A stretch of 64,000 bases of DNA from Phormidium tenue FACHB-1050. Lineage in GTDB: Bacteria; Cyanobacteriota; Cyanobacteriia; Pseudanabaenales; Pseudanabaenaceae. The stretch is from positions 124,001 to 188,000 of the forward strand of contig NZ_JACJQY010000001.1 of NCBI RefSeq assembly GCF_014696925.1. Reading direction: 5' to 3'. Made by a program: the position numbers and the translations under genes. Shown in pieces: positions 7,195-58,373 of the stretch; position 1 is the first letter of the stretch, and each line of letters starts with the position of its first letter. The notes under the pieces are model-generated. The model was not told the DNA's origin. It ran no database searches and saw nothing but the letters and a program-made list of their open reading frames with translations.

Positions 7195-8460
7195 ATGACC
7201 TCTGACAAAATGAAGTTGCTGGTCGCAGAAGCCGTTACAGCTCTTGCACCGACTTTTACCCAAATCGATCTCCATGTAAAAAACAATCTCGAACGGGTTT
7301 TACAAGCTTTTCGCGATCGCCGTGTGGGAGCGCATCACTTTGCAAGTGTGTCAGGCTATGGACATGGAGATATGGGGCGCGATGTTTTAGATGAGGTTTT
7401 CGCGCAAGTAATGGGTGCAGAATCTGCTGCTGTGCGCGTGCAGTTTGTTTCAGGAACCCATGCGATCGCCTGTTGTTTATTTGGGATTTTGCGCCCTTTA
7501 GATGAACTACTATCGGTTGTGGGTGCGCCCTATGACACGCTCGAAGAAGTCATCGGTTATCCTCTCACCTCCGATAGTCAAGGAACAGCCTATGCGGGTT
7601 CACTCAAAGATTTTGGCATCACCTATCGCCAAGTGGAACTTACACCCGAAGGAAATGTAAATTGGGAGGCTCTAGCAAAAGCGGTCAAACCTCAGACTCG
7701 TATGGTTTTGATTCAGCGCTCCTGTGGCTATGCATGGCGGCAAAGTCTTTCCATTGAAGATATTGAAAAAATTATCAAATTAGTTAAACAACAAAACTCA
7801 AATACCGTCTGCTTCGTTGATAACTGCTATGGCGAATTTATTAGCGATCGCGAACCAACGGCAGTTGGAGCCGATATCATCGCAGGTTCTCTAATCAAAA
7901 ATCCTGGTGGCACGATCGCTACCGCAGGCGGATATATTGCAGGTAAAGCTGAATATGTGGAACTAGCAGCCCAAAGACTCACGGCTCCTGGTATTGGGCG
8001 TGAAGGCGGCGCAACTTTTGATCTCAATCGATTACTCTTTCAAGGACTATTCCTTGCTCCGCAAATGGTTGGAGAAGCAATGAAAAGCAGTCATCTCGCC
8101 GCCTATGTGTTTGATCAACTGGGTTACAAAGTCAAGCCACTTCCCTTTGAGCCTCGTCGGGACATCATTCAAGCAATTCAACTCGGAAATCCCCAAACAT
8201 TAATTGAATTTTGCCGCAATCTTCAGCGCTTCTCGCCAATTGATTCCTATGTCGATCCCATCCCTGGGGAAATGCCTGGTTATGTCAGTCAGCTAGTCAT
8301 GGCAGGTGGCACTTTCATTGATGGCAGTACTTTGGAGCTTTCCGCAGACGGTCCTTTACGGGAGCCTTACACAGTATTTCTTCAAGGAGGAACCCATTGG
8401 ACGCATGTAGCGATCGCCCTTGAAAATTTCCAAATTGATGATTTATCAAAAGCACAATAA
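7195..8460 (+). CDS. methionine gamma-lyase family protein (PLP enzyme)
   Basis: A pyridoxal-phosphate enzyme of the family once called aluminium-resistance protein (PF06838), distantly related to cystathionine lyases. The reading frame shows QFVSGTHAIACCLFG, the PLP-aspartate region CFVDNCYGEF and the probable Schiff-base lysine in GSLIKNPGGTIA; then QGGTHWTHVAIALE at the C-terminus. The frame stays open up to a TTG at 7114, but that lies in the mobile element's terminal repeat and the extra 27 residues match nothing; ATG 7195 gives a normal 421 aa. Its physiological substrate is not established in the family. It ends inside a 30-bp palindrome shared with the next gene. Confidence 0.88.
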   Translation: MTSDKMKLLVAEAVTALAPTFTQIDLHVKNNLERVLQAFRDRRVGAHHFASVSGYGHGDMGRDVLDEVFAQVMGAESAAVRVQFVSGTHAIACCLFGILRPLDELLSVVGAPYDTLEEVIGYPLTSDSQGTAYAGSLKDFGITYRQVELTPEGNVNWEALAKAVKPQTRMVLIQRSCGYAWRQSLSIEDIEKIIKLVKQQNSNTVCFVDNCYGEFISDREPTAVGADIIAGSLIKNPGGTIATAGGYIAGKAEYVELAAQRLTAPGIGREGGATFDLNRLLFQGLFLAPQMVGEAMKSSHLAAYVFDQLGYKVKPLPFEPRRDIIQAIQLGNPQTLIEFCRNLQRFSPIDSYVDPIPGEMPGYVSQLVMAGGTFIDGSTLELSADGPLREPYTVFLQGGTHWTHVAIALENFQIDDLSKAQ

Positions 8461-12837: not shown

Positions 12838-12947
12838 AATACCAATTTAAAAAAGTGTAAGAACACTTTTTTAAATCAAAAACCACCCTCCGTATAGGTT
12901 ATGCCAAAACTAAAAATGGCTGCGCCATTTTTAGTTTTGGCATAACC
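12838..12947. repeat. two-hairpin composite repeat (family D, copy 1)
   Basis: Hairpin one pairs 12844-12857 with 12863-12876 (stem ends in GTGT/ACAC). A spacer of about 20 nt follows, then hairpin two pairs 12897-12920 with 12924-12947 (24 bp, inner core AATGGCtgcGCCATT). The left end reads AATACCAATT. The same two-hairpin plan recurs at 20110, 28863 and 36024. Confidence 0.75.
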
Positions 12948-12950
12948 CAT

Positions 12951-13000
12951 AATTATTTGTAGGATGCCTTAGTGCAGCGTAAAGCATCCTACAAATAATT
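12951..13000. repeat. 17-bp inverted repeat before GTPase gene
   Basis: Perfect arms AATTATTTGTAGGATGC (12951-12967) and complement (12984-13000) with a 16-nt loop, ending 27 nt before the ATG of the GTPase gene. Its position in the probable 5' leader could affect expression. Confidence 0.75.
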
Positions 13001-13027
13001 AAGACTTCTTCTTTACCTAGCGATGTT

Positions 13028-14449
13028 ATGCCACAAGACGAAAACTTTCTTAGCTTTGATGAAATTTTTGAGGAGTTAAATTATCGCCAAGCACAGCGCA
13101 CATTGCGAGATATTGTGGCTAATCTGGACTTGTCAGAACGAGAGCGGCGTGGACTAGAGGAGCCACTCGAAGAGCTTCAGCAAATGTTAGACAAGTTAGA
13201 GCGTCAAGTTCTCCAAATAGCAGTATTTGGCATGGTGGGACGGGGCAAATCGTCGGTACTCAATGCGCTGATGGGTGGGCAAGTTTTCGAGACAGGTCCC
13301 CTGCATGGTGTCACTACCAGTCGGCAAGCCGCCGAGTGGCAAATATCGCGAGAGGCGATGCAAACTAACGGCGATCGCACAATTCTGAAGGCTTCATTTC
13401 AAGGACGAGGTGAGGCAAGAATCGAATTGATTGATACACCTGGGATTGATGAGGTGGATGGAGAAGGTCGTGCCGAATTAGCCAAACGCATCGCCCAACA
13501 AGCGGATTTAATTTTATTTATCGTTGCGGGTGACATTACTAAGGTTGAGTATGATGCCCTTTCCGAACTCAGGGGCGCTAGTAAACCGATCCTGCTGGTA
13601 TTCAACAAAATTGACCAATATCCACCTGAAGATCGGCTAGCTATTTATGCCAAAATCCGTGATGAGCGGGTACGAGAGCTATTAACTGAAGATGAAATTG
13701 TAATGACGGCTGCTTCGCCGCTTGTGGCAAAAGCGATCCGTCAGCCCGATGGCTCCTTTGAGGCTGAGCTAGTCAATGGCAAGCCCCAAATTGAAGATTT
13801 AAAGCTAAAAATTCTGGAAGTACTCGATCGCGAAGGTAAATCTCTGATTGCGCTAAATACGATGATGTTTGCGGATATGGTGCAGGAGCGCGTAGTCCAA
13901 CGCAAAATGTTTGTACGCGATCGTCAAGCTAATCGCATCATCTGGAATTGCGTCATTACTCAAGCCGTGGCGATCGCCGTTAATCCCTTCACTGTAGTGG
14001 ATGTGATTACCAGCGCTATTATTGATGTCTCGATGATCGTGGCGCTATCCAAGCTTTATGGCATAAATATGAGCAACCGTGGCGCAATTTCACTGATGCA
14101 AAAAATAGCGATCGGTATGGGTGGCATCAGCGCCAGTGAATTTCTGGCTACCTTCGGCTTAAGTTCTCTTAAAGGTTTGCTGGGTATTGCCACGCCTGTG
14201 ACAGGTGGTTTAACTCTGGGTGGTTATGTGTCAGTTGCGATCGCTCAAGCAGGTGTAGCAGGTTTCTCGACCTATGCCCTAGGGCTAGTCACCAAGGAAT
14301 ATCTTGCTAATGGTGCATCTTGGGGAGCCGATGGTCCCAAAGCTGTGGTTAAAAGGATCTTAGAAACCATTGATGAAGACTCAATCCTAGCCAGAATCAA
14401 AGATGAACTCCGCGCCAAAATTGACCTGAGAAGGTTGAGAAAGGTCTAG
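13028..14449 (+). CDS. GTP-binding protein with DUF697-like membrane domain
   Basis: An Era/dynamin-like GTPase. Visible motifs are the P-loop GMVGRGKS (residues 68-75), G3 DTPGIDEV (from 136) and G4 NKID (193-196). The C-terminal half (about 285-430) has hydrophobic helices (NCVITQAVAIAVNPFTVVDV, then Gly-rich segments), resembling the DUF697/YcjF membrane region. It is probably a membrane-associated GTPase with unknown substrate. Several cyanobacteria carry such proteins in one or more copies. The start at ATG 13028 is the first in frame and gives 473 aa. It stands alone, followed by the convergent PIN/antitoxin/argonaute genes. Confidence 0.85.
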   Translation: MPQDENFLSFDEIFEELNYRQAQRTLRDIVANLDLSERERRGLEEPLEELQQMLDKLERQVLQIAVFGMVGRGKSSVLNALMGGQVFETGPLHGVTTSRQAAEWQISREAMQTNGDRTILKASFQGRGEARIELIDTPGIDEVDGEGRAELAKRIAQQADLILFIVAGDITKVEYDALSELRGASKPILLVFNKIDQYPPEDRLAIYAKIRDERVRELLTEDEIVMTAASPLVAKAIRQPDGSFEAELVNGKPQIEDLKLKILEVLDREGKSLIALNTMMFADMVQERVVQRKMFVRDRQANRIIWNCVITQAVAIAVNPFTVVDVITSAIIDVSMIVALSKLYGINMSNRGAISLMQKIAIGMGGISASEFLATFGLSSLKGLLGIATPVTGGLTLGGYVSVAIAQAGVAGFSTYALGLVTKEYLANGASWGADGPKAVVKRILETIDEDSILARIKDELRAKIDLRRLRKV

Positions 14450-14487
14450 AGATGTAATTTTGTCTTTGTCGTGGTCTGCGATCGCTC

Positions 14488-14904
14488 TTAAGAAATTTTG
14501 AGAAAGGCTGCTGGAGTAAAAATCGGGATATTTCTGAAGGGATGCAAAACTAATAAGTCTCGATCGCCTGTTATCAAATAGTCGGCTTTGCCATTAATTG
14601 CTAACTCTAGAAATTTATCATCTTTGCGATCACGGCACTCATTAACGGATTCCGTGATGTCGATGAGTTCAGACTGCTGAGCGAGTTGAGCAACAAACTC
14701 TGAACGAATTGATGGGTCTACATATTTATCAAATTTTGGGCGATTTAACACTGCTTGTAATTCTTCAAGGGTGGCGATGGAAATGAGGATAATCCCTGAT
14801 TGCCTGATTGATGTTACGGCGCGATCGGGGATGGATGAGGCAATGAGAACACTACTGACTAGAGTATTTGTATCGATGACAAATCTAAGCTTAGGCATCA
14901 TCAT
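14488..14904 (-). CDS. PIN-domain toxin (COG1569-type)
   Basis: A 138-aa PIN-domain ribonuclease, the toxin of a type II pair. The acidic residues that bind Mg2+ are visible: Asp11 in FVIDTNTLVSS, Glu47/48 in IATLEELQAVL, Asp95/96 in CRDRKDDKFLELA and Asp114/116 in ITGDRDLL. It overlaps the antitoxin gene by 14 nt. Three ATG codons in a row stand at 14904, 14901 and 14898, so the exact start is uncertain by two residues. It lies downstream of the antitoxin and argonaute genes on the same strand; read-through from argonaute is possible (61-nt gap). Confidence 0.88.
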   Translation of the reverse strand: MMMPKLRFVIDTNTLVSSVLIASSIPDRAVTSIRQSGIILISIATLEELQAVLNRPKFDKYVDPSIRSEFVAQLAQQSELIDITESVNECRDRKDDKFLELAINGKADYLITGDRDLLVLHPFRNIPIFTPAAFLKIS

Positions 14905-15112
14905 TCAAGATCTCGTTTAGGATTTCTTGGGTTAACCCATTGGCTTTCGCTTGAGCTTGCATTTCTAGAATAATTTCTTCTAGAGATCTGCTATTCATAA
15001 TTTGTTTAAGCCATCCATTAAGGATGATTTGCATTTTCTGGCGTTCTATCAAGTTTGCGGCTTGATATGCTTTTGCAATTTCTGGTTCAACTTCGATGCT
15101 GATGGTTTCCAT
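14891..15112 (-). CDS. antitoxin partner of PIN toxin
   Basis: A 73-aa protein with an N-terminal ISIEVEPEIAKAYQAANLIE segment like the antitoxins found beside COG1569 PIN toxins, and an acidic C-terminus (LNEILNDDA) that would cover the toxin. The assignment rests mostly on the 14-nt overlap with the toxin and on size. The ribosome site TAGGTAAG stands a few nt before the ATG. Such antitoxins normally bind their own promoter together with the toxin, but no operator is evident in the 61-nt gap to the argonaute stop. Confidence 0.78.
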   Translation of the reverse strand: METISIEVEPEIAKAYQAANLIERQKMQIILNGWLKQIMNSRSLEEIILEMQAQAKANGLTQEILNEILNDDA

Positions 15113-15173
15113 AACTTACCTATATTAATAATTGCTTTGTTGACATCAATACTGAATATTGTCATAACCTTCC

Positions 15174-17363
15174 TTATAGCCAGTAAGGTATGCTTCCTTC
15201 AAGATCTTTAGGTTTGATACCTTTTAGGGCTAAATAACCAATCTTGTCACTAAAATGAATACTTACTGGTGATCGTGTTCCTCTAAGCGAACCATAATGC
15301 AGAAGAGTCAAGGATAAAACTGAGTGAATAGCTTTCTCGATTGTAAATGGAGATTCAGTGCGAATTTGCAAGGGTTGAGGAGTAGAGTTTTTGAAGGGTG
15401 GCAATGATGACACCAAAAAAGCCTTAGTATCACTTAATTTGAATGCATCACCCTTACAAGGTTGCACCACTTCTTTTTTTATCTTTGTTTCCTGAGTTTC
15501 TTTATCAAAATATTCTGATTCTTGCAAAGAATAAATTCTAGGTACAGCCTCTTTAACTACTTCAACGAGATAAAATTCTGCCCCAATTTGTTTAGCCCAT
15601 GATCTTAATATTTCTTTCTCATTGCCACGAAATAAGCCATCTCTATGGATAACTACTCGTTTACCTTGAAATTCGTTGATGGGAAATAAACTTTGCAACA
15701 CATTTGCTGGGATAGTCTCACCTTCTAGTGGAGCATCATGAATGCGATATCGCATTAAATCTCCATTATTAAAGTAAATACGAGCTATAGCAGTAGCGTT
15801 AACACTTCCAACAAGATTTTGCTTTTTTTGTCGGGCAACATCAAGTCCTATTACCAAATCAGCATAGGGTAATGGTTGAGCCAAAGTAAATGGAGTGTTT
15901 CCTGTCTTGCCTAATATGCCTAAGGCAATATTGCCAAGGGCAAAGGTATTTGAAGTTGTTGATCTTTCAATATATTGACTGGGTATGCCACGACCTACAG
16001 CTATAGACTTAAATTCATAATACGCACTCCCTTCATCGTCAGAATCATCATCAAAAAAAGCCAAAATAATATCAGGTTGTTTTTCTTGCAGGATATTGAT
16101 CGCTTCTTCTATCCTTACTCTTGAATCTTCTTGAATAGTTTTTAAACCTATATACTCACACTTGAATTTGAATTTGTTTAATTCTCTTTTTAAAGCAGGA
16201 CAAAATTTATTTGAGTCTTCTGATTTAATGCCCAAATCTTCTGTGTTTTGCCCTTTAATAATAGCTATGCGAATTGGTTTATCTTCCGAAAATTTATCTG
16301 CTCTTTTATACACTCCGTATTTTTGAAGATTACTTAACATATCCTCATGCCTTCCAATCTGAGAATTACCAAAACAAAGATTGGAACTAAAGCTTAGCTT
16401 TTCAGAGTCCAAAAATAAAGCTTGCTGTCTTGAGGAAGCATAGGCAGATTTGATAAGATCTTTTTTCTTGGCAATTTCAGATATTAGCTTTACGAGTTCA
16501 GATCTTAATTTGGGTTCTATCTTTAAAATGTTTAAGGCTTTCTTAGAATCTATCCCAAAACGATTGTAATCTCCTGACCTAACAATAATTCGTAAGCTAC
16601 TAACAAGATAGTCATAACGAGATATTCCAACAGAAACAACTAATTCATCATCAGACGCTTTAGAAATAGAAGATTTAGTTTCAGATTTTTTTGTTAAACT
16701 AATAAGTCTATTTCTATGTTCGCTAAGCTGTCCTGTTATCGACAAAACCTCACCTTTGAAGTCAGAATTTTTATCTGATACCATTAATCCTACAAGCTTA
16801 TTTGGATCAGATATTTGGGCTAAATAAGTTTTCAGATCTTGTTTGTAAGTTTGTTTGGATTCGATAGAAATAGATACTGACGCTTTACCGTTGACGACCC
16901 ATCCTCTTGTTCTATATGTCCTCTCTATTTTTACCTTACCAAGATCGTGATCTCGAATTGACAATATTGACTTTATTTCTCTATCAATATCGGGAAATAG
17001 TCCATTAGCAACAAAATCTGCTTGTATTTGAGGTGCAGTTTCAAAATCTTCGTCAAACGTAATTCTTTGTAAATTTCTGAAAGTATTGACCTGTTCTTGC
17101 CAAAGAGATTCCAAGATAGTCATGATTTCAGACTCAGATAACAACTTATCGGTAATAATCCTTTCTGAACTCCATATCCAATGCCCTCCAAATTCAACTT
17201 TTAATCGATACGTTAATTTCCAGCCAATTTCAGAAGTATCACTATTCCCCATTGTTAATCTGTAAGCAAACAATCTTGGTAGTACCGAAATATTAACTGG
17301 GAAAACTTCTGTAAACGTATGCATTTGATTTATATTTTTTAAATCTAGCTTCAGCACTGACAT
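15174..17363 (-). CDS. ago: long prokaryotic Argonaute, catalytically complete
   Basis: A 729-aa protein with the N/PAZ/MID/PIWI plan of long-A pAgos. The PIWI catalytic tetrad is readable: Asp508 (VIGLDVARQKK), a glutamate finger near Glu549 (PLEGETIP), Asp575 (VIHRDGLFRG) and Asp706 (SIHFSDKIGY). Spacing resembles Thermus Ago. The MID 5'-phosphate pocket fits the YK class: Tyr448, Lys452, Gln463 (GIPSQYIE) and Lys486. Known relatives (LrAgo of Limnothrix, SeAgo of Synechococcus) are DNA-guided DNA nucleases acting on plasmids or replication termini; the same role is inference here. The gene is AT-rich, and I saw no HIP1 site in it, unlike its neighbours, suggesting transfer. Confidence 0.93.
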   Translation of the reverse strand: MSVLKLDLKNINQMHTFTEVFPVNISVLPRLFAYRLTMGNSDTSEIGWKLTYRLKVEFGGHWIWSSERIITDKLLSESEIMTILESLWQEQVNTFRNLQRITFDEDFETAPQIQADFVANGLFPDIDREIKSILSIRDHDLGKVKIERTYRTRGWVVNGKASVSISIESKQTYKQDLKTYLAQISDPNKLVGLMVSDKNSDFKGEVLSITGQLSEHRNRLISLTKKSETKSSISKASDDELVVSVGISRYDYLVSSLRIIVRSGDYNRFGIDSKKALNILKIEPKLRSELVKLISEIAKKKDLIKSAYASSRQQALFLDSEKLSFSSNLCFGNSQIGRHEDMLSNLQKYGVYKRADKFSEDKPIRIAIIKGQNTEDLGIKSEDSNKFCPALKRELNKFKFKCEYIGLKTIQEDSRVRIEEAINILQEKQPDIILAFFDDDSDDEGSAYYEFKSIAVGRGIPSQYIERSTTSNTFALGNIALGILGKTGNTPFTLAQPLPYADLVIGLDVARQKKQNLVGSVNATAIARIYFNNGDLMRYRIHDAPLEGETIPANVLQSLFPINEFQGKRVVIHRDGLFRGNEKEILRSWAKQIGAEFYLVEVVKEAVPRIYSLQESEYFDKETQETKIKKEVVQPCKGDAFKLSDTKAFLVSSLPPFKNSTPQPLQIRTESPFTIEKAIHSVLSLTLLHYGSLRGTRSPVSIHFSDKIGYLALKGIKPKDLEGSIPYWL

Positions 17364-17492
17364 TATTTTAATAGTTTAAAGAGCTTTATACAAATTATTT
17401 AAAATACAAATTTAGTGCGATCGCCCATTTTGTTAATCATTTTAAAGGATCCAAGCAAGTCTCAAATAAAATAAGACCAAAATAAAATAGTT

Positions 17493-17573
17493 ATGCGGAT
17501 ACTATCCCTTAGTACCCTGCGAGACTTATGGGAAAAATATCCCGAAGTAGAAAAAGTCCTAAAAATTTGGTGA
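17493..17573 (+). pseudogene. truncated HigB/RelE-like toxin remnant
   Basis: A short frame of 26 codons reads MRILSLSTLRDLWEKYPEVE and then KVLKIW before a stop. This matches the typical N-terminus of HigB-family mRNA-cleaving toxins (R-x-I-x-x-x-x-TLRxFWExxPxAE), which normally run to about 95-100 aa. The C-terminal catalytic part is missing, and no antitoxin gene follows. I take it as a relic of a second toxin-antitoxin locus beside argonaute. An independent small peptide is possible but less likely. Confidence 0.6.
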
Positions 17574-17616
17574 GACTAAGTATCTCATACTAAATTAAAT
17601 TAATCGTATCTAAATT

Positions 17617-43635: not shown

Positions 43636-44760
43636 GTGAAACCGCGCATTTATTACACTAAACCATCCATCACTGAGCTAGAAGTCGAGTATGCCACTGA
43701 TGCTGCTCGAAATGGTTGGGGCGATCGCTGTTACGAATACATCAATCTTTTTGAAGAAGCTTTTAAATCACACTTAGGTGTGGAATATGCGATCGCTACT
43801 TCAAGTTGTACAGGTGCATTGCATATGGGTATGTCGGCACTAGGGATTGGTGTAGGTGATGAGGTGATCATGGCTGACACCAACTGGATCGCAACGGCTG
43901 CCCCGATAGTGCATTTGGGAGCCAAACCGATATTTGTAGATATATTGCCAGACAGTTGGTGCATCGATCCAGACTTAGCAGAAGCGGCAATTACACCAAG
44001 AACCAAGGCAATTGTAGCGGTTCACTTATATGGCAATTTATGTGACATGAATCGGTTGTTGGCAATCGGTGAAAAGTATGGCATTCCCATCATTGAGGAT
44101 GCGGCTGAGGCGATCGGCTCTGTCTATCATGGTAAGCGGGCTGGCAGCATGGGTAAGTTTGGTAGTTTTTCGTTTCATGGTACGAAAACGCTGACTACTG
44201 GTGAAGGGGGGTTGTTTGTTACCAATGATACTGACCTCTATGAAACTGTGCTTACACTTTCCAATCATGGGCGTGCTAGAGGACAAACCAAACAATTTTG
44301 GGCAGATATGGTTGGCTTTAAGTATAAAATGTCTAATATTCAAGCGGCGATCGGCTACGGTCAAATGCAACGCATTGATCAACTAATTAATCGAAAACGC
44401 GAGATTTTAAAATTCTATAAGGATCATCTTGAGTATCTTGATGGTATATCCATGAATCCAGAACCAGAAGGAACGATCAATGGTGCATGGATGCCCACAA
44501 TTGTTTTTGATAAAGAAACTGGAGTTACTCGCGAGAACTTACAGTCTATTTTTCAATCAGAAAATATAGATGCAAGAGTATTCTTTTATCCTCTATCGAG
44601 TTTATTGATGTTTGAGGATACAGAAGCTAATATTAATTCATGGAATATTCCATCGCGATCAATTAATCTACCTAGTTATCACGATATTAATCAACAAGAA
44701 TTATCTTCTGTTATAGACTGCATTTCCAATAAATTGAAAATCTATCTAAATGCTAAATAG
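43636..44760 (+). CDS. DegT/DnrJ/EryC1 family sugar aminotransferase
   Basis: A PLP-dependent enzyme converting a keto sugar to an amino sugar. It shows ATSSCTGALHMGMSALGIGV, GDEVIMADTNWIATAAPIV, PIIEDAAEAIGSVYHGKRAG and the PLP-lysine motif SFHGTKTLTTGEGG. The lysine is present; a ColD-type 3-dehydratase would have histidine there. Closest in look to perosamine-synthase-like enzymes acting at C4. Start is GTG 43636; no ATG fits before the conserved YTKPSITELEVEYA. It overlaps the next gene by 11 nt. Confidence 0.93.
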   Translation: MKPRIYYTKPSITELEVEYATDAARNGWGDRCYEYINLFEEAFKSHLGVEYAIATSSCTGALHMGMSALGIGVGDEVIMADTNWIATAAPIVHLGAKPIFVDILPDSWCIDPDLAEAAITPRTKAIVAVHLYGNLCDMNRLLAIGEKYGIPIIEDAAEAIGSVYHGKRAGSMGKFGSFSFHGTKTLTTGEGGLFVTNDTDLYETVLTLSNHGRARGQTKQFWADMVGFKYKMSNIQAAIGYGQMQRIDQLINRKREILKFYKDHLEYLDGISMNPEPEGTINGAWMPTIVFDKETGVTRENLQSIFQSENIDARVFFYPLSSLLMFEDTEANINSWNIPSRSINLPSYHDINQQELSSVIDCISNKLKIYLNAK

Positions 44761-45595
44761 TTTACTTACAAAAAACCAAGTAGCAGATTTTAAAGAACAT
44801 GGCTACGCTGTAATCAAAGGATTCTACGACTGTAGGTTAGAAATAGAGCCTATACAATACGGTATATGGAAAATCTTAAAAATTCTTTTTGCGAAATATC
44901 ATATTGAAATTGAATCTAAAGAATTTTCTCCTGACACCTTTGATTATGGCTATCAAAAACTAATTACTGTTAATCGTAAATATGGTGGTGAAGTGTATGA
45001 TGCCATTAAACAAATACCTGCTTTTATGCGTTTGATTAGTTTAGAAAAAAACGATCAAATATTTATGCAGCTACGAAATACAAATACTCCAGCAATTGCC
45101 GCAGCAGGCTATGGCATTCGTATTGATAACCCTCATGAAGAAAAATATCGTTCTTTATGGCATTATGAATATCGAGATCAGTTGAGAAGTATAGATGGAA
45201 TAGTTTTCTGGAGTCCACTAGTTAGTCTAACTTCTGAGATGGGACCAGTGCAAATCTGTCCAAGATCTCATTTTGGTGGGTTGCGTCGATCATATTTAAA
45301 TGATCCAGACAATCCTGAAAAAACAGGAGCATATGCAATGCGCCTAGAAAATGAAGAAGCTTTAATTGCTCAGTATGGTATTGTCGCTCCACTTTCTGAA
45401 CCTGGAGATATGGTATTAATAGATTTTCTTACTTTACATTCATCAGGTGTTAATATATCCGAAAGGTCTCGTTGGAGTATGCAATTTAGGTACTTTAGTT
45501 TTGAAGATCCTAGTGGAATTAACATTAATTGGACTGGCTGTGTCGCTAATGGTATACAACTTAAAGATATTCATCCTGAATTAGTTATAGATTAA
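44750..45595 (+). CDS. phytanoyl-CoA dioxygenase (PhyH) family protein
   Basis: An Fe(II)/2-oxoglutarate oxygenase-like protein of 281 aa. The likely iron ligands are His and Glu in SLWHYEYRDQ and a distal His in FLTLHSSGVN; the 2-oxoglutarate-binding arginine would be in SERSRWSMQFRYFS. GPVQICPRSHFGG is a typical PhyH strand. Relatives in sugar clusters hydroxylate or oxidise sugars or their substituents; the substrate is unknown. Its start lies within the end of the aminotransferase gene, so they are translationally coupled. Confidence 0.85.
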   Translation: MLNSLLTKNQVADFKEHGYAVIKGFYDCRLEIEPIQYGIWKILKILFAKYHIEIESKEFSPDTFDYGYQKLITVNRKYGGEVYDAIKQIPAFMRLISLEKNDQIFMQLRNTNTPAIAAAGYGIRIDNPHEEKYRSLWHYEYRDQLRSIDGIVFWSPLVSLTSEMGPVQICPRSHFGGLRRSYLNDPDNPEKTGAYAMRLENEEALIAQYGIVAPLSEPGDMVLIDFLTLHSSGVNISERSRWSMQFRYFSFEDPSGININWTGCVANGIQLKDIHPELVID

Positions 45596-45640
45596 AGTTA
45601 TATCTTCATCCAATTATTTCTAAATCCTAAATCAACTACT

Positions 45641-46795
45641 ATGATCAACTGTGCATTAACTGGAAAGCCTTTACTCAACCCCATTTATCAATCGCAGGGT
45701 AATCTATCTGTTACATCGTTAAGTCAAACCTATGAAGGTAAAACAGTTGTCTATTTTAATGAAGAGATAGGACATCTACAAACTAAAGAGATCGAAAACA
45801 TTGATGTTTACTATGACAAACAATATCAATTTTTTAATCAGAGCGATGAAGATGACATTTTATATAAAGTAGTTGATGGCAAAAAAATCTTTAGACAAGA
45901 GCATCAAGTAAATACTTTACTATCAAAGATTAACTTTGAAGATGGGATGCAAGTCTTGGATTATGGTTGTGCTAAGGGTACGGTAATGAAGCGTCTATGT
46001 CTTCTAAATCCGTCTGTTGAGACATATCTATTTGATGTAAGTCAAATGTATGTAAACTTATGGGAAAAGTTTTTACCATCAGATAACTATGCTTCCTACA
46101 AAACAAAGAAAGAGTGGAATAAGAAATTTGATGTGGTTACATCTTTCTTTGCTTTTGAACATACCCCAGATCCAATTAAAGAATTACGTAATATTAATAA
46201 TTTACTGAAAGATGGTGGATATTTTTATTGTATTGTGCCTAACATTTTTGAGAATACAGGTGACTTTATAGTTGCCGATCATGTCCATCATTATAGTGAT
46301 GTATCTTTGAAATATCTATTTGCAAAAGTAGGTTTTGAAACTATCGAAATTGACATTTCGTCACATTTTGGTGCTTACATTGCTATAGGTAAAAAGGTTT
46401 CACAGGAATCACTAGACTTAAAGATTAATTCGATAGATTTGGCAAATGTGGTAAATGCTGCGAAAAAAACAGCTAATTATTGGAATACTTTACAAGATAA
46501 AATTTGTCAATTTGAGGAGTCTGTAAGTGGACAAAAAGCTGCTATATACGGAGCTGGAGTTTATGGTAGTTTTATTGCCACATGCCTTAAGAATTTAGAT
46601 AATGTCCAATACTTTATCGACCAGAACCCTCTTTTGCATGGAACAACAACTTTTGATAGACCAATTATTTCTAATAATGATTTGCCTGAATATATTCAGG
46701 TTGTCTATGTGGGGCTAAATCCTAAAATTGCGAAACAGGTTGTAGAAGGTTTTTCAGAGTGGCAAGAAAAGATGTCTTCTATACTCTTTTTATAG
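45641..46795 (+). CDS. SAM-dependent methyltransferase, C-methyltransferase-like
   Basis: A 384-aa protein. The central SAM-binding domain (about 90-215) has MQVLDYGCAKGTVMKRLC, VTSFFAFEHTPDPIKELRNI and LKDGGYFYCIVPNIFEN; the C-terminal part (about 290-384) has AAIYGAGVYGSFIATCLKN and FIDQNPLLHG, like the C-terminal domain of sugar C-methyltransferases. An N-terminal zinc-like domain is not obvious (only Cys4). It therefore resembles the 41837 gene in its back half, and probably methylates a second position or a different sugar. ATG 45641. Confidence 0.85.
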   Translation: MINCALTGKPLLNPIYQSQGNLSVTSLSQTYEGKTVVYFNEEIGHLQTKEIENIDVYYDKQYQFFNQSDEDDILYKVVDGKKIFRQEHQVNTLLSKINFEDGMQVLDYGCAKGTVMKRLCLLNPSVETYLFDVSQMYVNLWEKFLPSDNYASYKTKKEWNKKFDVVTSFFAFEHTPDPIKELRNINNLLKDGGYFYCIVPNIFENTGDFIVADHVHHYSDVSLKYLFAKVGFETIEIDISSHFGAYIAIGKKVSQESLDLKINSIDLANVVNAAKKTANYWNTLQDKICQFEESVSGQKAAIYGAGVYGSFIATCLKNLDNVQYFIDQNPLLHGTTTFDRPIISNNDLPEYIQVVYVGLNPKIAKQVVEGFSEWQEKMSSILFL

Positions 46796-46857
46796 TTATA
46801 GCTTTAGGCTTTCATTTTAGACTTATTTAAAACGACTTAGTTTTGATATTGAGCAGT

Positions 46858-47802
46858 ATGACTAATTATTCACATTTCAACAAATTGTTAGGCATGATCT
46901 ACCAGAAAGCACCTCTTCAAAAGAAAAAGTTAGAGAGGTATCTAGGTGAACAAACTAGTTCCTTTTTTAGAGAGGCAGAAGATTTCACTGTTCAATACGC
47001 TAGGTATCTAGATAGTCAAAATATTCCCTTTGAGTATGCAGTAAATGCATATTTAAAGATGTGTAGTGATATGCTAAGGTGTCAAGTATCCTTTATGAGA
47101 TTGGGTAAATATCCAGTAAAGGTTTCCAGAGAAACATTTGACAATGTATACAACAATCCTCAAGAGATGAAGTCATACATGATTGGTTTGGCAATATCAC
47201 AATTCTTATGGACAAGCCATTATAAAATTTTTTCTTTCTTAAAACTAGCTCTACAAAATTACGCTGAACATACAACAAGCTATCTTGAGATTGGACCTGG
47301 TCATGGTTTGTTCTTAAGTGAAGCTGTAAACATACTTAAAAAATGTAAAAAGTATATCGCTGTAGACATTAGCCCTACATCTATAGAGATTACCAAATCA
47401 ATTATGCAAGAATTACATGCTAATGATAAGTTAGATATAAGCTATTACAATGAAGATATGCTGTCATTGAGTCTCGAACATAAGTATGACTTTATAACGA
47501 TGGGTGAAGTAATTGAGCATGTAAGTTTCCCTGTAAGACTTTTAACACAATTTTACAACTTACTAACAGAGAACGGTAGAGGATTTATCTCGACTTGTGT
47601 GAATTGTCCAGCGATTGACCACATATACCATTTTCATTCAGTAGATGAAATAAGAGAAATGTTTAGCTTGTGTGGTTTAGAAATTTTAGACGAGAGAGTT
47701 TGCCCAGTAGAATCTCTACCAATGGAAGAAATAATCAAACGCAAAATCACTATTAACTACTGTGCGATCGTATGTAGGAGGAGAGATAATGAGCAAGTTT
47801 GA
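46858..47802 (+). CDS. class I SAM-dependent methyltransferase
   Basis: A 314-aa protein. The N-terminal 130 residues are helical and of unknown type. The methyltransferase core follows with TTSYLEIGPGHGLFLSEAVN (motif I), KYIAVDISPTSIEIT, YDFITMGEVIEHVSFPV and GRGFISTCVNCPAIDHIYHF. ATG 46858 is favoured over the TTG at 46843, although neither has a clear ribosome site. It overlaps the MaoC-SDR gene by 14 nt, so it may belong to that acyl cassette. The substrate is unknown. Confidence 0.82.
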   Translation: MTNYSHFNKLLGMIYQKAPLQKKKLERYLGEQTSSFFREAEDFTVQYARYLDSQNIPFEYAVNAYLKMCSDMLRCQVSFMRLGKYPVKVSRETFDNVYNNPQEMKSYMIGLAISQFLWTSHYKIFSFLKLALQNYAEHTTSYLEIGPGHGLFLSEAVNILKKCKKYIAVDISPTSIEITKSIMQELHANDKLDISYYNEDMLSLSLEHKYDFITMGEVIEHVSFPVRLLTQFYNLLTENGRGFISTCVNCPAIDHIYHFHSVDEIREMFSLCGLEILDERVCPVESLPMEEIIKRKITINYCAIVCRRRDNEQV

Positions 47803-48982
47803 GCAAATTCAGGTAGGAGACAAAGCCAAAATAAAACATAAAGTTCTACAAAGTGATATTGATAAATTTGTAGAACTTACAGGTGATGATAATAAACTGC
47901 ATACAGACAAAAATTATGCAGCTAAAACCACATTTAAAAAGCCTGTTGCACACGGAATGTTAGGCGCATCATTTATCTCTACAATTATTGGCACAAGGCT
48001 GCCTGGAGATGGGGCATTGTGGTTTTCGCAGAGCTTAGATTTTCTCATGCCTGTACGAGTTGGAGATGAATTAACCGTTACAGCCGAGGTTATAAAGAAA
48101 TTTGATAAACTACAAGCAATTGAGATTCAGACTGATATATATAACCAAGACAAGCAAAAAGTAACGACTGGTATAGCTAAAGTAAAGATAATAGAAGAAG
48201 TTATCCCAACAGAAGAACAAGAGGTTGCTACATCTAAAAAAACTAGGGTTGCTTTGGTAGTTGGTGCTACAGGTGGCATAGGAACATCTACTTCACTAAT
48301 TTTAGCAAAAGAGGGATTTGATATTTTAATCCACTACTTTAGTGATCATTCAGGTGCATTAAAGTTGAAGGAAAAAATACAGCAATTAAATGTAAAAGCT
48401 GAGATTTATAAAGCAGATGTAACTAAAGAAGATGAGGTAAAAGAATTAATTGAATTTTTCAAGCGCAAGTTTGAAGCTTTAACAGTTTTTGTCAATTGTG
48501 CCACAATTAATTTGCCCAATATTAAAATCGAGAACTTAGATTGGGAAGATATACAAAAACAAATTGATATTAATATTAAAAGTAATTTTTTCCTATTAAA
48601 GCTTTGTCTTCCAATTATGGAGAACTTCAAGTATGGAAAGATAATATTCCTAGAAACACAGGCTGTTGAAGGTACTCCGCCTTTAGATTGGCTACCTTAT
48701 ATTACAGCAAAAGCTGCTTTATACGGTTTTGGGAAGTCGCTAGCGGTAGAATTAGCTGCAAAAGGTATTCGCGTTAACTTTGTTTCACCAAGCATGACAG
48801 AGACTGAATTAATTGCAAATATCCCAGAGAAAGTTAGGTTGGTTACAGCAGCGAAAACACCGCTACGGAGATTGGCAAATCCTGAAGATGTAGCCAATGC
48901 GATCGCTTTCCTAGCATCCGACAAGTCTGATTTTATGACTGGAGAGACTTTGCGTGTGAATGGAGGACAAGTAATGATTTGA
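47789..48982 (+). CDS. MaoC dehydratase - short-chain dehydrogenase fusion
   Basis: Two enzymes in one chain. Residues 1-135 are a MaoC/hot-dog (R)-hydratase, with the catalytic pair Asp33/His38 in TGDDNKLHTD and HGMLGASF. Residues 152-397 are an SDR, with the NAD(P) motif VVGATGGIGTSTS, Tyr304-x3-Lys308 (YITAK) and NGG near the C-terminus. The usual catalytic serine 13 residues before the tyrosine is Gln291 here, with Thr290 beside it. AGGAGGAG upstream of ATG 47789 sets the start. With the ACP nearby it could form or reduce 3-hydroxyacyl groups for glycan acylation (inference). Confidence 0.88.
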   Translation: MSKFEQIQVGDKAKIKHKVLQSDIDKFVELTGDDNKLHTDKNYAAKTTFKKPVAHGMLGASFISTIIGTRLPGDGALWFSQSLDFLMPVRVGDELTVTAEVIKKFDKLQAIEIQTDIYNQDKQKVTTGIAKVKIIEEVIPTEEQEVATSKKTRVALVVGATGGIGTSTSLILAKEGFDILIHYFSDHSGALKLKEKIQQLNVKAEIYKADVTKEDEVKELIEFFKRKFEALTVFVNCATINLPNIKIENLDWEDIQKQIDINIKSNFFLLKLCLPIMENFKYGKIIFLETQAVEGTPPLDWLPYITAKAALYGFGKSLAVELAAKGIRVNFVSPSMTETELIANIPEKVRLVTAAKTPLRRLANPEDVANAIAFLASDKSDFMTGETLRVNGGQVMI

Positions 48983-49088
48983 TATATTACCTAAAATAAA
49001 GACATAGTTATTGATTGTCGATATTTTATTCAATATTTTTTGATATTTAAAATTAATGATTGGACTTATATTGATTTGCTTTAAATTT

Positions 49089-50798
49089 ATGAGAACACTG
49101 GTACTTAAGGATTTAAAATATACGGAAATATTATCCAACAATAAAGTGTTAGGTGAAAGTCTAGCAAATTTACCTATGTATACAATATCTGTGTTGTCTA
49201 ACATAATTACATCACAGCTTAATGATATTTTAGAATTTGCCATCAGAAGTCAAGGAATTAATGCAAAAGTCAATTCTGGAGACTACGATAATATTGTTCA
49301 GAATAGTGCAACCTATGCCAAATCTAATGTGGTAATTGTTTTTTGGGAATTAGCGAACATAATAGATGGTCTGCAATATAAATCCTTAACAATGACTTCA
49401 GATGAAATTGCAGCACTTATAGTAAAAGTAAAGCAAGAAATTGATTTTGTATTTTATTCTTTGTCTACAACACCTTTAGTGATTTTCAATCAATTTAGCA
49501 CATTAATATTTAATCAACATTTTTTGCGTGTAAACCAATTTGATGAAATTTGTAATGAACTAAACCAATATATTAGTAGCAATATTCCAAGCAACTTCTT
49601 TTTAATACCTATAGATAAGTTATTTGCCCAAGTCTCTATAGCAAGAAGTGTAGATCTTCGTTACTACTATTCCTCTAAGGCTCTCTATAGTATAGATTTC
49701 CTTAAATGTTATGCACAATTTATATCTCCTCTTATTCTTTCCGTTAATGGCAAAAGTAAGAAGGTACTAGTTTTAGATTGTGATAATACATTGTGGAAAG
49801 GTATTATTGGGGAAGATGGATTAGAAGGGATTTCCTTATCTACTAATGATAAAAATGGTGTTTTTTTTGAAGAGGTACATCATTTAATTAAAAATCTGTC
49901 AAACGATGGAGTCATGGTTTGTTTATGCAGTAAAAATAATCAATCGGATCTAGATGAGATATGGAAATCTAGATCCGATTTTGCTTTGGATGAAAGGGAT
50001 GTTTTTGCAAAAAAGATAAATTGGCAGAGCAAAGATAAAAACTTACAGGAATTAATTGAAGATTTAAATGTTGGTGCTGATAGTTTAGTTTTTGTAGATG
50101 ATTCATCATTTGAGATAAGCTGTGTTGAAAGTAGTTTACCAGAAGTTACAACTCTACAAGTTCCTAAGCCACTTCATACTTATCCTTCTTTATTTCGAGA
50201 AACCACTTCGCTATTTTTTAAGCTATCTCAAACTGCTGAAGATAACAAAAGGATAGAAATGTATCATTATGAGGCTCGGCGAAAGAATGAAAGAAAAAAG
50301 TTTGCATCAATAGATGAATACTTAAGTTCATTAGAGCTTAAACTATCGATTCATATTAATCATTCAGAACATCTAACAAGAGCATCTCAACTTACTCAAA
50401 AGACCAATCAATTTAATCTCACAACTAAACGATATACAGAAACAGAAATTAAAGGTTTATTAGAAGGCGGCGATCATCGTATCTATGTTATGGAAGTAAG
50501 CGACAAATTTGGAGATTATGGTCTTACAGGGTTGGCAATCATCGCTATCAATCATACCGAAGCAGAAATAGATACATTCTTATTGAGTTGTAGAGTATTG
50601 GGACGTAATATAGAAATTAACTTTGTTAACTTTATTATTAATGACCTAAAAGAATTAGGTGTAAATCATATCTTTGCAAATTATGTGAAAACCCCTAAGA
50701 ATATGCAAGTAGCTAACTTCTATGAAAAAAATGGCTTTGATATTTTATCTGCTAGTGATTCTAGGACTGAATATCGTTTATTATTAAATTCACTATAA
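49089..50798 (+). CDS. FkbH-like HAD-IIIC family protein
   Basis: FkbH-type enzymes load a phosphorylated three-carbon unit onto an acyl carrier protein and remove the phosphate; relatives also occur in surface-glycan clusters. The domains are an N-terminal SGNH-like part (1-210), the HAD catalytic region with VLVLDCDNTLWKGIIGEDG (about 229) and LVFVDDSSFEISCV, and a C-terminal GNAT-like domain (about 420-569, with MEVSDKFGDYGLTGLAIIA and NFYEKNGF). ATG 49089 precedes a natural protein start, 11 codons inside the open frame. The ACP gene follows after 62 nt. It carries an internal 14-bp inverted repeat. Confidence 0.9.
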   Translation: MRTLVLKDLKYTEILSNNKVLGESLANLPMYTISVLSNIITSQLNDILEFAIRSQGINAKVNSGDYDNIVQNSATYAKSNVVIVFWELANIIDGLQYKSLTMTSDEIAALIVKVKQEIDFVFYSLSTTPLVIFNQFSTLIFNQHFLRVNQFDEICNELNQYISSNIPSNFFLIPIDKLFAQVSIARSVDLRYYYSSKALYSIDFLKCYAQFISPLILSVNGKSKKVLVLDCDNTLWKGIIGEDGLEGISLSTNDKNGVFFEEVHHLIKNLSNDGVMVCLCSKNNQSDLDEIWKSRSDFALDERDVFAKKINWQSKDKNLQELIEDLNVGADSLVFVDDSSFEISCVESSLPEVTTLQVPKPLHTYPSLFRETTSLFFKLSQTAEDNKRIEMYHYEARRKNERKKFASIDEYLSSLELKLSIHINHSEHLTRASQLTQKTNQFNLTTKRYTETEIKGLLEGGDHRIYVMEVSDKFGDYGLTGLAIIAINHTEAEIDTFLLSCRVLGRNIEINFVNFIINDLKELGVNHIFANYVKTPKNMQVANFYEKNGFDILSASDSRTEYRLLLNSL

Positions 50799-50860
50799 GA
50801 ATGATTTTTTTGTTTTTAAGTTTATTTTTAAATAGTTTGTATAACAACGTTGAGTTAAAT

Positions 50861-51094
50861 ATGATTGACAAAAGAATTAAACAAGTAATGGCGGCAGTGT
50901 TTGAGATTGAAGCTGATTCTATTTCTGAAGATGCTTCTCCAGATACCATTGAAATTTGGGACTCCTTACACCATATGAATTTGGTGGTTGCATTGGAGGA
51001 GGAGTTTACAGTTGTTTTTGATGATGAGCAAATTGGTGATTTATTAAACTACAAGCTAATCAAACTTGCCATTTCAGAATTTATAAACTCTTAA
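50861..51094 (+). CDS. acyl carrier protein
   Basis: A 77-aa four-helix carrier. The phosphopantetheine serine is Ser35 in EIWDSLHHMNLVVALEEEF, and the acidic helix II follows. ATG 50861 is chosen; the longer frame from 50801 adds a hydrophobic run not seen in ACPs. It lies between the FkbH-like and acyltransferase genes, so it should hold the acyl unit transferred to a sugar, rather than serve general fatty acid synthesis (inference). The DSL motif is intact, so it can be activated. Confidence 0.92.
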   Translation: MIDKRIKQVMAAVFEIEADSISEDASPDTIEIWDSLHHMNLVVALEEEFTVVFDDEQIGDLLNYKLIKLAISEFINS

Positions 51095-51096
51095 TT

Positions 51097-51612
51097 ATGT
51101 TGTTGAAGAACATTAAACATCAATTTAGGCTTTGGCTCAATACTTTTAAAATTGCCTATCGTTATGATGTGCTTATAGAGAAATCAGTCACTCTGAAGTA
51201 TATAGACACTATTTCATTTGGACATAAGTGTACTCTCCAATCTGGTGTCTACATTTATGGTTCTAGACGCGGGATGAAGGTGGTTTTGGGTGATGATGTT
51301 GCTATAGGGATGGGAAGTACTATATTAGGAGAAGGCGGAGTCGAGATTGGAGATGCTACACATTTTGGACCTAATGTAGTTTTGACGACTCAATATGGAA
51401 ATAGAAGTACAAGTTCTCTTGCGGAAACCTCCTTAAAGTATCAACCTGTTAAAATCGGGAAAGGAGTATGGATAGGTGCTGGTAGTATCATTATGCCAGG
51501 CACAGAATTGGGAGATTACTGTAGTGTAGCGCCCAATTCTGTAGTATATGGAAGGTGGACAGACAGCAACATACAACTTATGGGTAATCCTGCTAGAAAG
51601 CGGAAGTTCTAA
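51097..51612 (+). CDS. hexapeptide-repeat acyltransferase
   Basis: A left-handed beta-helix transferase of 171 aa. Repeats run from about residue 45 to 150 (TLQSGVYIYGSR, VVLGDDVAIGMGSTILGEGG, VEIGDATHFGPNVVLTTQYG, KIGKGVWIGAGSIIMPGTEL), and end in NPARKRKF. It starts 2 nt after the ACP stop, so its donor may be the acyl-ACP rather than acetyl-CoA (inference). The probable catalytic histidine is in DATHFGP. Confidence 0.88.
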   Translation: MLLKNIKHQFRLWLNTFKIAYRYDVLIEKSVTLKYIDTISFGHKCTLQSGVYIYGSRRGMKVVLGDDVAIGMGSTILGEGGVEIGDATHFGPNVVLTTQYGNRSTSSLAETSLKYQPVKIGKGVWIGAGSIIMPGTELGDYCSVAPNSVVYGRWTDSNIQLMGNPARKRKF

Positions 51613-51628
51613 ATAAGTTTATCTAAAT

Positions 51629-52348
51629 ATGAAGATTGTTATATCTCAACCAATGTATTTCCCTTGGGTCGGAATGTTCGAGCAGGTGAATTTATGTGAT
51701 GCTTACGTAAATTATGATGATGTGCAGTTTTCTAAAGGTAGTTTTACTAATCGTGTACAGATCAAAACTAATTCATCAAGAGGATTTAACTGGCTTACAG
51801 TGCCTCTAAAAAATTTAAAACTAGGTGTTTTGATTAATGAATTAGAGATAGATAATCAAAGGGATTGGCAAAACCAACATCTAGAATTGCTTAAACAATC
51901 TTATAAAAATGCACCTTATCTTAAGGAAATGCTAGATTTAGTAACTAATCTTTTTGATTGCCATCTTAATACTATTTCAGAAGTCTCTATGAAAAGTATA
52001 GAACTTAGTATGAATTACTTTGATATTGCAAAAGATAAAAGTTTTTACACTGCTTCTAAACTGGAGATAGAAGGTAGTAGTTCTGAGAGGGTATATCAGA
52101 TAGTTAAATATTTAAATGGGACTCATTACATTACTGGACATGGAGCTAAAAATTATTTAGATCATTCTCTTTTCGAGAATAACGGTATTAGGGTAGAGTA
52201 TATGAATTATCTCAAATTGCCTTACCCACAGCAATTTTCTACATTTAACCCTCATGTATCAATACTAGATCTTATTGCTAATATCGGTAAACAAGGGAAA
52301 GAATATATTAAGTCATCAACAATTTACTGGAAAGAATTTTTAGCATGA
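51629..52348 (+). CDS. WbqC family protein
   Basis: Begins VISQPMYFPWVGMFEQVNLC and continues CDAYVNYDDVQFSKGSFTNR, the signature of WbqC-like proteins found in O-antigen clusters. The biochemical role of the family is unsettled; a link to amino-sugar acylation or glycine/amine transfer has been proposed. It contains YITGHGAKNYLD near residue 170. Length 239 aa. It ends with a 4-nt overlap (ATGA) with the CmcI-like gene and starts 16 nt after the acyltransferase gene, so it is part of the same operon. Confidence 0.88.
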   Translation: MKIVISQPMYFPWVGMFEQVNLCDAYVNYDDVQFSKGSFTNRVQIKTNSSRGFNWLTVPLKNLKLGVLINELEIDNQRDWQNQHLELLKQSYKNAPYLKEMLDLVTNLFDCHLNTISEVSMKSIELSMNYFDIAKDKSFYTASKLEIEGSSSERVYQIVKYLNGTHYITGHGAKNYLDHSLFENNGIRVEYMNYLKLPYPQQFSTFNPHVSILDLIANIGKQGKEYIKSSTIYWKEFLA

Positions 52349-53094
52349 ATCCTATTGAACAATTTGAGCAATCTAAGTCTATCAATATTGATGGTTTAGG
52401 CAAGGATGATAGAGCAAAGAGTTCGGCTATTCAGTTTATGCTGGATTCTGCACCGTATCAGTACACTTATAATTTTTCTTGGTTAGGTCGCCCAATAATA
52501 CAATATCCGCAGGATATGTTGGCGATGCAAGAGCTGATCTGGAAAGTGCAGCCTGACTTAATTATTGAGACTGGTATTGCCCATGGTGGATCGCTGATTT
52601 TTTCGGCTTCGATGCTAGAACTTAATGCGGTTTGTGGTGGTTGCCAAGATGCGGAAGTATTGGGGTTAGATATTGATATTCGCACCCATAACCGAGAGGC
52701 AATTGAATCACATCCGATGTTTAAGCGAATTTCGATGATTCAAGGATCAAGTATCGCTCCTGAAATTATTGAACAGGTCAAAGCAAAAGCGGCTGGTAAG
52801 CAGAAAATTTTAGTATGCCTAGACAGTAACCACACTCACGATCATGTCCTTGCTGAGCTAGAGGCATATGCGCCACTAACTTCTGTGGGTAGTTACTGTA
52901 TTATATTTGATACTGCGATCGAGGATTTGCCTAATGAAATGTTTGGAGATCGCCCTTGGGGAGTAGGCAACAATCCGAAAACAGCAGTGTGGGAATACCT
53001 CAAGTCGCATCCAGAGTTTGAAATTGATAAGATTATTCAACATAAATTGTTAATTACCGTTGCCCCTGATGGTTATTTGAAGAGAGTTAAATAA
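52345..53094 (+). CDS. cephalosporin hydroxylase-like (CmcI) methyltransferase
   Basis: CmcI-fold protein of 249 aa, a Rossmann SAM-dependent enzyme family that includes rhamnosyl O-methyltransferases despite the name. Motifs: LIIETGIAHGGSLIFSASML (SAM loop), VLGLDIDIRTHNREAI, ILVCLDSNHTHDHVLAELE and IFDTAIEDLP. With rhamnose synthesis in the cluster, O-methylation of rhamnose is a plausible job (inference). It overlaps wbqC-like upstream and the next glycosyltransferase downstream (TAATG). Confidence 0.88.
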   Translation: MNPIEQFEQSKSINIDGLGKDDRAKSSAIQFMLDSAPYQYTYNFSWLGRPIIQYPQDMLAMQELIWKVQPDLIIETGIAHGGSLIFSASMLELNAVCGGCQDAEVLGLDIDIRTHNREAIESHPMFKRISMIQGSSIAPEIIEQVKAKAAGKQKILVCLDSNHTHDHVLAELEAYAPLTSVGSYCIIFDTAIEDLPNEMFGDRPWGVGNNPKTAVWEYLKSHPEFEIDKIIQHKLLITVAPDGYLKRVK

Positions 53095-54782: not shown

Positions 54783-55151
54783 TAAAAATGTTTGGATTGA
54801 TAATGATAAACATTTCAAATATTTTGGATAGACTGATGAGGGGCTCTGGATAGCTAATTAGTGATAGACCGATGAAGCCGTTGATTGGCGAGACTTTACA
54901 AGCAAATCGTAGCTAAAGCCTAGGATTGCTATCAGATATGGATTACAGCTTGATATCACTAATTAGTGAGCCAGTGCCGATGAGGAATTAAGTTTTAATT
55001 GAAATCAATGCCTGAAAGTGATCTCAATATTTAATTGAAGAGCATTGTAAGCTAGTATCCTGAGTCAATAAACACACATTAATGGTAAAACACTATTAGC
55101 ATAGTGCATACGTTAGACTATCTTTTCAATATTATGAGGTCTTGACCGTCA
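54783..55151. promoter_or_regulatory. intergenic region before wzm with a 14-bp palindrome
   Basis: A 369-nt stretch without a supportable ORF. It contains the perfect palindrome TCACTAATTAGTGA (54956-54969). The 12-nt sequence CTAATTAGTGAT at 54854-54865 is the inverted copy of 54955-54966, about 90 bp apart. Such paired sites could be a regulator's operator upstream of the export genes, but no promoter boxes were convincing. Confidence 0.4.
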
Positions 55152-55955: not shown

Positions 55956-56026
55956 ATAGGGAATATTTGAATCTTAAGTTGATGCCCTAAAATTCGTCCA
56001 TTTATTCATTTAGAGTATATAAAGCG

Positions 56027-56395: not shown

Positions 56396-56498
56396 CTTTG
56401 TAATTGCAAAAAATTTCTCAAACTGTATATTCTTTGATATTATGATCTTCACGTTACATTTTCAAGGTTCACAATCGAAAATCATGGATTTACGATAG

Positions 56499-58356: not shown

Positions 58357-58373
58357 TATCACTTGATAAAGCC

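Follow-up and report, generated by a model that had tools for sequence, protein, structure and literature searches.

The window, meaning the whole 64-kb stretch of DNA that was analysed, carries on its minus strand a gene for a long-A prokaryotic Argonaute (pAgo), with two small genes behind it on the same strand. The Argonaute open reading frame (ORF) has 729 codons and no internal stop. Its product matches the Piwi domain (PF02171, Pfam, E 5.5e-13) and the PADLOC pAgo model PDLC02396 (816 bits, profile positions 3-683 of 683), and its sequence matches in the PDB include 9iad, AaAgo, CpAgo, CbAgo and KmAgo. An earlier note on this DNA had described a complete long Argonaute gene, and the open frame, the full-length profile match and the Piwi domain bear this out. 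The real start is probably Met14, at 17324, because the four full-length orthologues from the genus begin or align near this residue and residues 1-10 have a pLDDT below 50 in the predicted structure. A scan for promoters and terminators gave matches no more numerous than in shuffles. The features of the locus are as follows:

15174..17363, minus strand: long-A pAgo, 729 aa as ORF, 716 aa from the probable start Met14 at 17324
15906..16022, minus strand: MID 5′-phosphate pocket, codons 448 to 486 (Y448, K452, Q463, K486), from the TtAgo alignment
15840..15842, minus strand: codon of catalytic Asp508 (TtAgo D478), from the TtAgo alignment
15717..15719, minus strand: codon of catalytic Glu549 (TtAgo E512), from the TtAgo alignment
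15639..15641, minus strand: codon of catalytic Asp575 (TtAgo D546), from the TtAgo alignment
15246..15248, minus strand: codon of catalytic Asp706 (TtAgo D660), from the TtAgo alignment
14891..15112, minus strand: antitoxin-like ORF, 73 aa, 61 bp behind the Argonaute gene and overlapping the PIN gene
14488..14904, minus strand: PIN-domain toxin-like nuclease (TIGR00305, PF13470)
14450..17616, no strand: stretch between the GTPase and MOSC genes, which are separated by only some 70 bp in G010 and G005 (empty site)
14478..14485, no strand: HIP1 octamer on the PIN side of the insert (motif count)
17417..17424, no strand: HIP1 octamer on the Argonaute side of the insert (motif count)
17493..17573, plus strand: 26-codon fragment that by eye resembles the start of what is presumably a HigB-like toxin

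Active site, guide pocket and fold

The earlier note had named a catalytic tetrad (D508, E549, D575 and D706) and a pocket in the MID domain (Y448, K452, Q463 and K486), and all eight letters stand exactly as claimed. Specifically, the tetrad residues align with D478, E512, D546 and D660 of TtAgo, whose sequence was taken from a TtAgo plasmid record, and the pocket residues align with R418, K422, Q433 and K457, TtAgo having an arginine (R418) where the window protein has Y448. The outcome that the note had named as fatal, residues lying outside the active site, did not occur: all eight fall in tetrad or pocket columns of TtAgo. The window protein thus has the DEDX tetrad of a long-A pAgo and the YK-type 5′-phosphate motif (Y, K, Q, K), as defined in the available excerpt of PMC6299218. 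The spacing of the tetrad, 508-549-575-706 (intervals 41/26/131), had been likened to that of DNA-guided pAgos, and it is nearly that of ChAgo from Chroococcidiopsis sp., a DEDD protein that likewise has a cyanobacterial host, for which 533-575-600-721 (42/25/121) is given in the excerpt of PMC11817465.

The structure of the window protein was predicted with AlphaFold2 from a 40-sequence alignment (the window protein and 39 of the 66 full-length loci), with a mean pLDDT of 89.4 and a pTM of 0.87. Foldseek returned as the best match the Argonaute of Chroococcidiopsis thermalis (CtAgo, 9iad), another protein with a cyanobacterial host, which has the same full-length fold in VIA-align (Z 38.8, 3.6 Å over 653 residues) at only 27-30% identity. 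CbAgo and CpAgo from Clostridium (Z 32.5 and 32.4) and TtAgo from Thermus (Z 31.7) share the architecture and the columns of the active site and the 5′-phosphate pocket, at 16-20% identity in structural alignments. The alignments to CtAgo, CbAgo and TtAgo span model residues 11-729 or 13-729 and so cover the N, PAZ, MID and PIWI domains as a whole, domain borders not being individually assigned. The structural comparison that the earlier note had proposed, run against CtAgo, CbAgo, CpAgo, AaAgo and TtAgo in place of LrAgo and SeAgo, matches the predicted structure to full-length pAgos. Alanine occupies the D508 and D575 columns in the CbAgo entry 6qzk and the D575 column in the CpAgo entry 9jh8; we take these alanines to be deliberate inactivating changes.

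The motif is not a chance reading: all eight residues fit, and so does the predicted fold as a whole. It is also extremely improbable that the gene is catalytically dead or decaying: no sequence support for decay was found, the frame is open, the model is confident over its full length, and the window protein shares the DEDD and YKQK residues with all four further full-length orthologues of the genus, which are 71-72% identical to it. The alignment to TtAgo residues and the confident full-length model point to a long-A pAgo that is complete and whose sequence looks like that of an active slicer. The window protein thus appears to be an ordinary long-A pAgo, predicted to cleave.

Possible foreign character and movement between sites

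The earlier note had suspected a transferred gene from the lack of the HIP1 octamer that is common in neighbouring genes. HIP1 occurs 96 times in the window and not once in the Argonaute ORF, and no copy lies between the octamers at 14478 and 17417; the HIP1 core CGATCG is likewise absent from the ORF. At the local density of 2.08 per kb (first 43.8 kb), zero copies in 2190 bp has a P of about 0.011. The rest of those 43.8 kb, cut into 697 overlapping tiles of the same length (tiles touching 12900-17500 excluded), yields no tile free of HIP1. The gene does differ from its neighbours in this respect, and the Argonaute genes of all five genus copies are without HIP1. The GC content of the gene is 34%, versus 40-48% in most neighbouring genes; one neighbouring gene also has 34%, and the linked 73-aa ORF has 37%. 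Across the five copies the Argonaute genes have 34-36% GC, versus about 42-43% around them. Octamer frequencies are a published means of finding recently transferred cyanobacterial genes, according to the excerpt of PMC3497702. Positions 44000-64000 of the window are also HIP1-poor (4 copies) and AT-rich; the genes there, named by eye, are of glycosyltransferase, methyltransferase, sugar and ABC exporter types, and this part is perhaps a surface-polysaccharide island, also acquired.

The Argonaute lineage is present in 5 of 26 Pseudanabaena genomes, that of the window included, with the other copies 71-72% identical to the window protein. The records with orthologues include Pseudanabaena sp. 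ULC187bin1 (G013) and Pseudanabaena sp. UWO311 (G016), the latter without a metagenome-assembly mark, and a different genus of the family (G032) has an orthologue broken by contig ends. Nine of the 26 genomes contain some Argonaute match to the window protein, of four types by PADLOC best match. The Argonautes L007, L008, L009 and L010, from four other genomes of the genus, belong by best match to three other types (PDLC02380, PDLC02428 twice and PDLC02387), and all four have the tetrad letters.

The five copies occupy four sites: between the GTPase and MOSC genes (window), behind mutS (G013), behind uvrB (G025 and G015) and inside a CHAT-type gene, so named by eye (G016, L015:8201-11300). The GTPase and MOSC genes lie on one contig within 3.2 kb in 7 of 26 genomes; the site is empty in G010 and G005, and other small genes stand between them in G012, G016, G019 and G020. 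The 26-codon fragment at 17493..17573, to be compared with a 65-aa ORF beside uvrB in G012, is perhaps left over from a previous insert here. At 24 other mutS loci, no Argonaute, antitoxin or PIN gene stands alongside (within 1.5 kb, less at contig ends). Six other genomes have the CHAT-type gene with an open frame of 1052-1255 aa, and in G016 the identity to these breaks near L015:8677; no Pfam family was found in the G016 fragment. Among plasmid records, 10 have a match, none of them covering 80% of the query.

Presence in 5 of 26 genomes, four chromosomal sites and a window site that is empty in two relatives make it well supported that the gene is mobile within the genus; it is an accessory gene that comes and goes at several chromosomal sites. 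The suspicion of a transferred gene fits the empty site in two relatives, the four sites of the five orthologues and the absence of HIP1 from all five. Its further part, transfer between species, is likely; relocation and loss are not separated from it.

Some of these sites bear what may be traces of the route of movement. In G013, at mutS, a copy of the final codons and trailer of uvrB (GCGATCGC...GGTAAAGCATAAA) immediately precedes the Argonaute gene, and the uvrB tail, lacking its first bases, also stands directly upstream of the gene in G015. Shuffled sequences gave a match as good in 0 of 500 cases for G013, 0 of 500 for G015 and 3 of 500 for G025, and nothing above shuffles was found upstream of the gene in the window or in G016. 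Other displaced uvrB tails occur in the genus; some start at the first HIP1 bases, and some are followed by toxin-antitoxin, methyltransferase-like or other genes (names by eye). Examples are L244:1591-1702, L242:2074-2130, L240:3349-3397, L238:2494-2549, L241:3390-3468 and L014:11053-11087. The left end lies within two bases of the first HIP1 base in 7 of 11 tails examined, or 5 of 9 when L239 and L246, two weak tails picked from the table over similar ones, are set aside; fourteen weaker matches (E 5e-4 to 0.01) fall outside this count of 11 copies.

In a test made after seeing the data, the tails suggest a cassette-like exchange at the uvrB end. Taken further, the Argonaute gene could be cargo of an undescribed exchange in which defence and toxin-antitoxin genes enter or leave by way of a uvrB 3′-end copy that starts at HIP1, which we consider doubtful. 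Excerpts of PMC4390886 link HIP1 to site-specific and illegitimate recombination and state that there is no evidence linking it to homologous recombination. HIP1 as a general insertion junction was set aside and serves only as a lead: the 5′ break in G016 is not at HIP1, and no uvrB tail was found upstream of the Argonaute gene in the window.

The linked antitoxin-like and PIN genes

In the window and in G013, an ORF of 73-74 aa and then a PIN toxin gene follow the Argonaute gene at 61-70 bp on the same strand. The PIN protein scores 85.5 bits against TIGR00305 (cut-off 29.15) and so belongs to the PIN toxin family of a VapBC-like type II pair. The 73-aa ORF has no Pfam or NCBIfam match; it lies upstream of the PIN gene, overlaps it, and also stands beside PIN relatives in other genomes. 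Taking intact and broken copies together, both genes are found behind the Argonaute gene on the same strand in 4 of 5 genus copies, at three sites. In G025 and G015 the antitoxin-like ORF is kept and a VapBC-like pair occupies the former place of pin; by eye, this pair is preceded in both genomes by the first pin codons, and in G025 it is also followed by a fragment from farther along pin. A PIN nuclease therefore still lies behind the Argonaute gene in these two genomes. The inserted pairs are at L013:11167-11968 (G025) and L016:7555-8232 (G015), toxin-antitoxin genes nested in a toxin gene. Also in G015, a 68-aa gene is duplicated at 96% identity (L016:5554-5757 and 7296-7499), flanking a second antitoxin/PIN pair near uvrB.

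The pair also has a life of its own. Neither G016 nor G032 has it behind the Argonaute gene, and in G016 the Argonaute gene stands alone with an antitoxin/PIN pair elsewhere, at uvrB. Ten relatives of the 73-aa protein with at least 68% identity occur in the genus, four beside the Argonaute gene and six away from it; 25 of the 26 genomes contain relatives of the PIN gene. The Argonaute-antitoxin junctions of G013, G015 and G025 are homologous (for each pair, none of 1000 shuffles reached as good a match), so the pair travelled with the Argonaute gene at least between the uvrB and mutS sites. The window junction has no demonstrable homology to these three, and the Argonaute-linked antitoxins do not form one clade in antitoxin trees; movement as one block is thus evident only in the uvrB and mutS copies, and the window pair may have joined its Argonaute separately. 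A strictly co-inherited unit of Argonaute, antitoxin and PIN gene, considered as a candidate, is in general unsupported, the window junction and the antitoxin trees being against it.

Farther afield, the ORF lists of 14 non-cyanobacterial Argonaute loci, some with little flank, revealed by eye no common neighbours. In a tblastn search of loci L029-L128 (flanks of 1.5 kb for L029-L047 and up to 5 kb for L049-L128), the sole locus with the antitoxin and PIN genes was L049, identical with the G013 copy. Among the matches listed in a literature search, as far as their excerpts go, we recognised no paper on an Argonaute with a linked PIN toxin pair.

A comparable arrangement is APAP of haloarchaea: according to the excerpt of PMC11442185, the gene of an active long-A pAgo is there closely linked to that of a nuclease, at gaps of 31-64 bp, and the pAgo suppresses the toxicity of the nuclease. 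By analogy, the Argonaute, the 73-aa protein and the PIN protein might form one defence system, in which the Argonaute would sense invading DNA and free or activate the PIN RNase, shutting the cell down; the common strand, the short gaps, the linkage at three sites and the PIN nuclease retained behind the Argonaute gene in G025 and G015 speak for it. However, the nuclease of APAP is a PLD, whereas the nuclease linked to the window's Argonaute belongs to the PIN families (TIGR00305/PF13470) and does not classify as a PLD. Unlike that of APAP, moreover, the PIN gene already owns an antitoxin-like partner, the linkage extends to only 4 of 5 copies, and the pair also occurs alone. With six of ten partner relatives away from any Argonaute gene, Argonautes without the pair in G016 and G032, linked antitoxins that are not monophyletic and PIN relatives in nearly every genome of the genus, we regard such a joint system as unlikely. 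Most likely the pair accompanies or stabilises the block, in which it would have an addiction role; a PIN effector under Argonaute control is less likely.

Relatives and proposed function

A scan of genome contigs with the single protein as query found no relatives; with the alignment as query it found 109, of which 80 were kept and 8 of these 80 dropped (short or no ORF). The resulting set of 82 rows includes the window protein and nine other Argonautes from the genome search. The closest proteins outside the family are from Chloroflexota, Acidobacteriota, Chromatiaceae, Poribacteria and an archaeon. In an alignment of 12 rows from outside the family, ten are 39-51% identical to the window protein and two, both from Chloroflexota, 33-35%; the archaeal row L054, outside this alignment, is 47% identical in its best segment. 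The cyanobacterial Argonautes L029-L031 are 35-42% identical, and the main cyanobacterial Argonautes 28-33%.

Two quick trees, the first of 44 of the 82 rows and with long-branch warnings, the second of 30 rows after removal of long branches (L008, L060, L063, L064) and duplicates (L049, L050, L090) and thinning of the rest, place the window protein in a mixed clade among Chloroflexota and other Argonautes, to which the first also assigns L029-L031. CtAgo, which scores like the main cyanobacterial Argonautes, is not part of the trees that give this placement. A topology that keeps all cyanobacterial Argonautes together, among them L029-L031, is rejected (p-AU 5e-79). One that puts the Pseudanabaena clade and the main cyanobacterial Argonautes on the same side of a branch is not (p-AU 0.514), and the tree tests single out no donor phylum.

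We consider it probable that the gene encodes a slicing-competent long-A pAgo that would act as a DNA-guided DNA cutter against invading DNA, an accessory function usually accompanied by an antitoxin/PIN pair. The MID pocket would bind a short 5′-phosphorylated DNA guide, PAZ would hold the 3′ end of the guide, and the DEDD site of PIWI would cut complementary DNA, thereby degrading incoming plasmid or phage DNA; the small antitoxin/PIN toxin pair behind the Argonaute gene would stabilise or accompany the block. Defence by DNA-guided DNA cleavage is the most likely role: in excerpts of the respective papers, SeAgo lowers transformation and plasmid maintenance, which indicates such a role in its host (PMC10653904), and ChAgo is a DNA-guided nuclease with cleavage of DNA shown in vitro (PMC11817465). 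SeAgo and LrAgo, both cyanobacterial pAgos, are presented as DNA-guided DNA nucleases in the excerpt of PMC10269773. LrAgo may be the nearest characterised relative of the window protein.

Guide chemistry is not readable from the residues, and the DNA guides proposed here are suggested by related proteins. Use of RNA guides, or activity mainly on RNA, is improbable for the window protein. ChAgo with DNA guides does also cut RNA, less well, in the excerpt of PMC11817465; set against this, ChAgo itself uses DNA guides, and the structurally closest proteins, CtAgo, CbAgo, CpAgo and TtAgo, were solved with guide DNA. Service mainly in replicating or segregating the chromosome (by decatenation, like TtAgo) would accord with SeAgo and LrAgo loading guides from the replication terminus and helping gyrase-inhibited E. 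coli to divide, as the excerpt of PMC10269773 describes. Such a core role predicts steadier retention than the 5 of 26 genomes observed, and we think it quite unlikely to take the place of defence.

The gene stands at four chromosomal sites in five species, the window's site is empty in two further species, and the linked antitoxin/PIN pair is found both beside the Argonaute gene and apart from it. These copies allow a test of whether the pair only stabilises a mobile Argonaute or acts together with it. They document movement between sites unusually clearly. If the cassette-like exchange is true, HIP1, a motif of unsettled function, would gain a role in the recombination of defence cassettes. 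The window protein also adds an apparently active long-A Argonaute outside the main cyanobacterial Argonaute clade in these trees, joint grouping having a p-AU of 0.514. In the excerpt of the survey PMC10653904, all predicted active cyanobacterial pAgos found there fall in one cluster with TtAgo; should the window protein prove active and really lie outside it, this picture would need widening.
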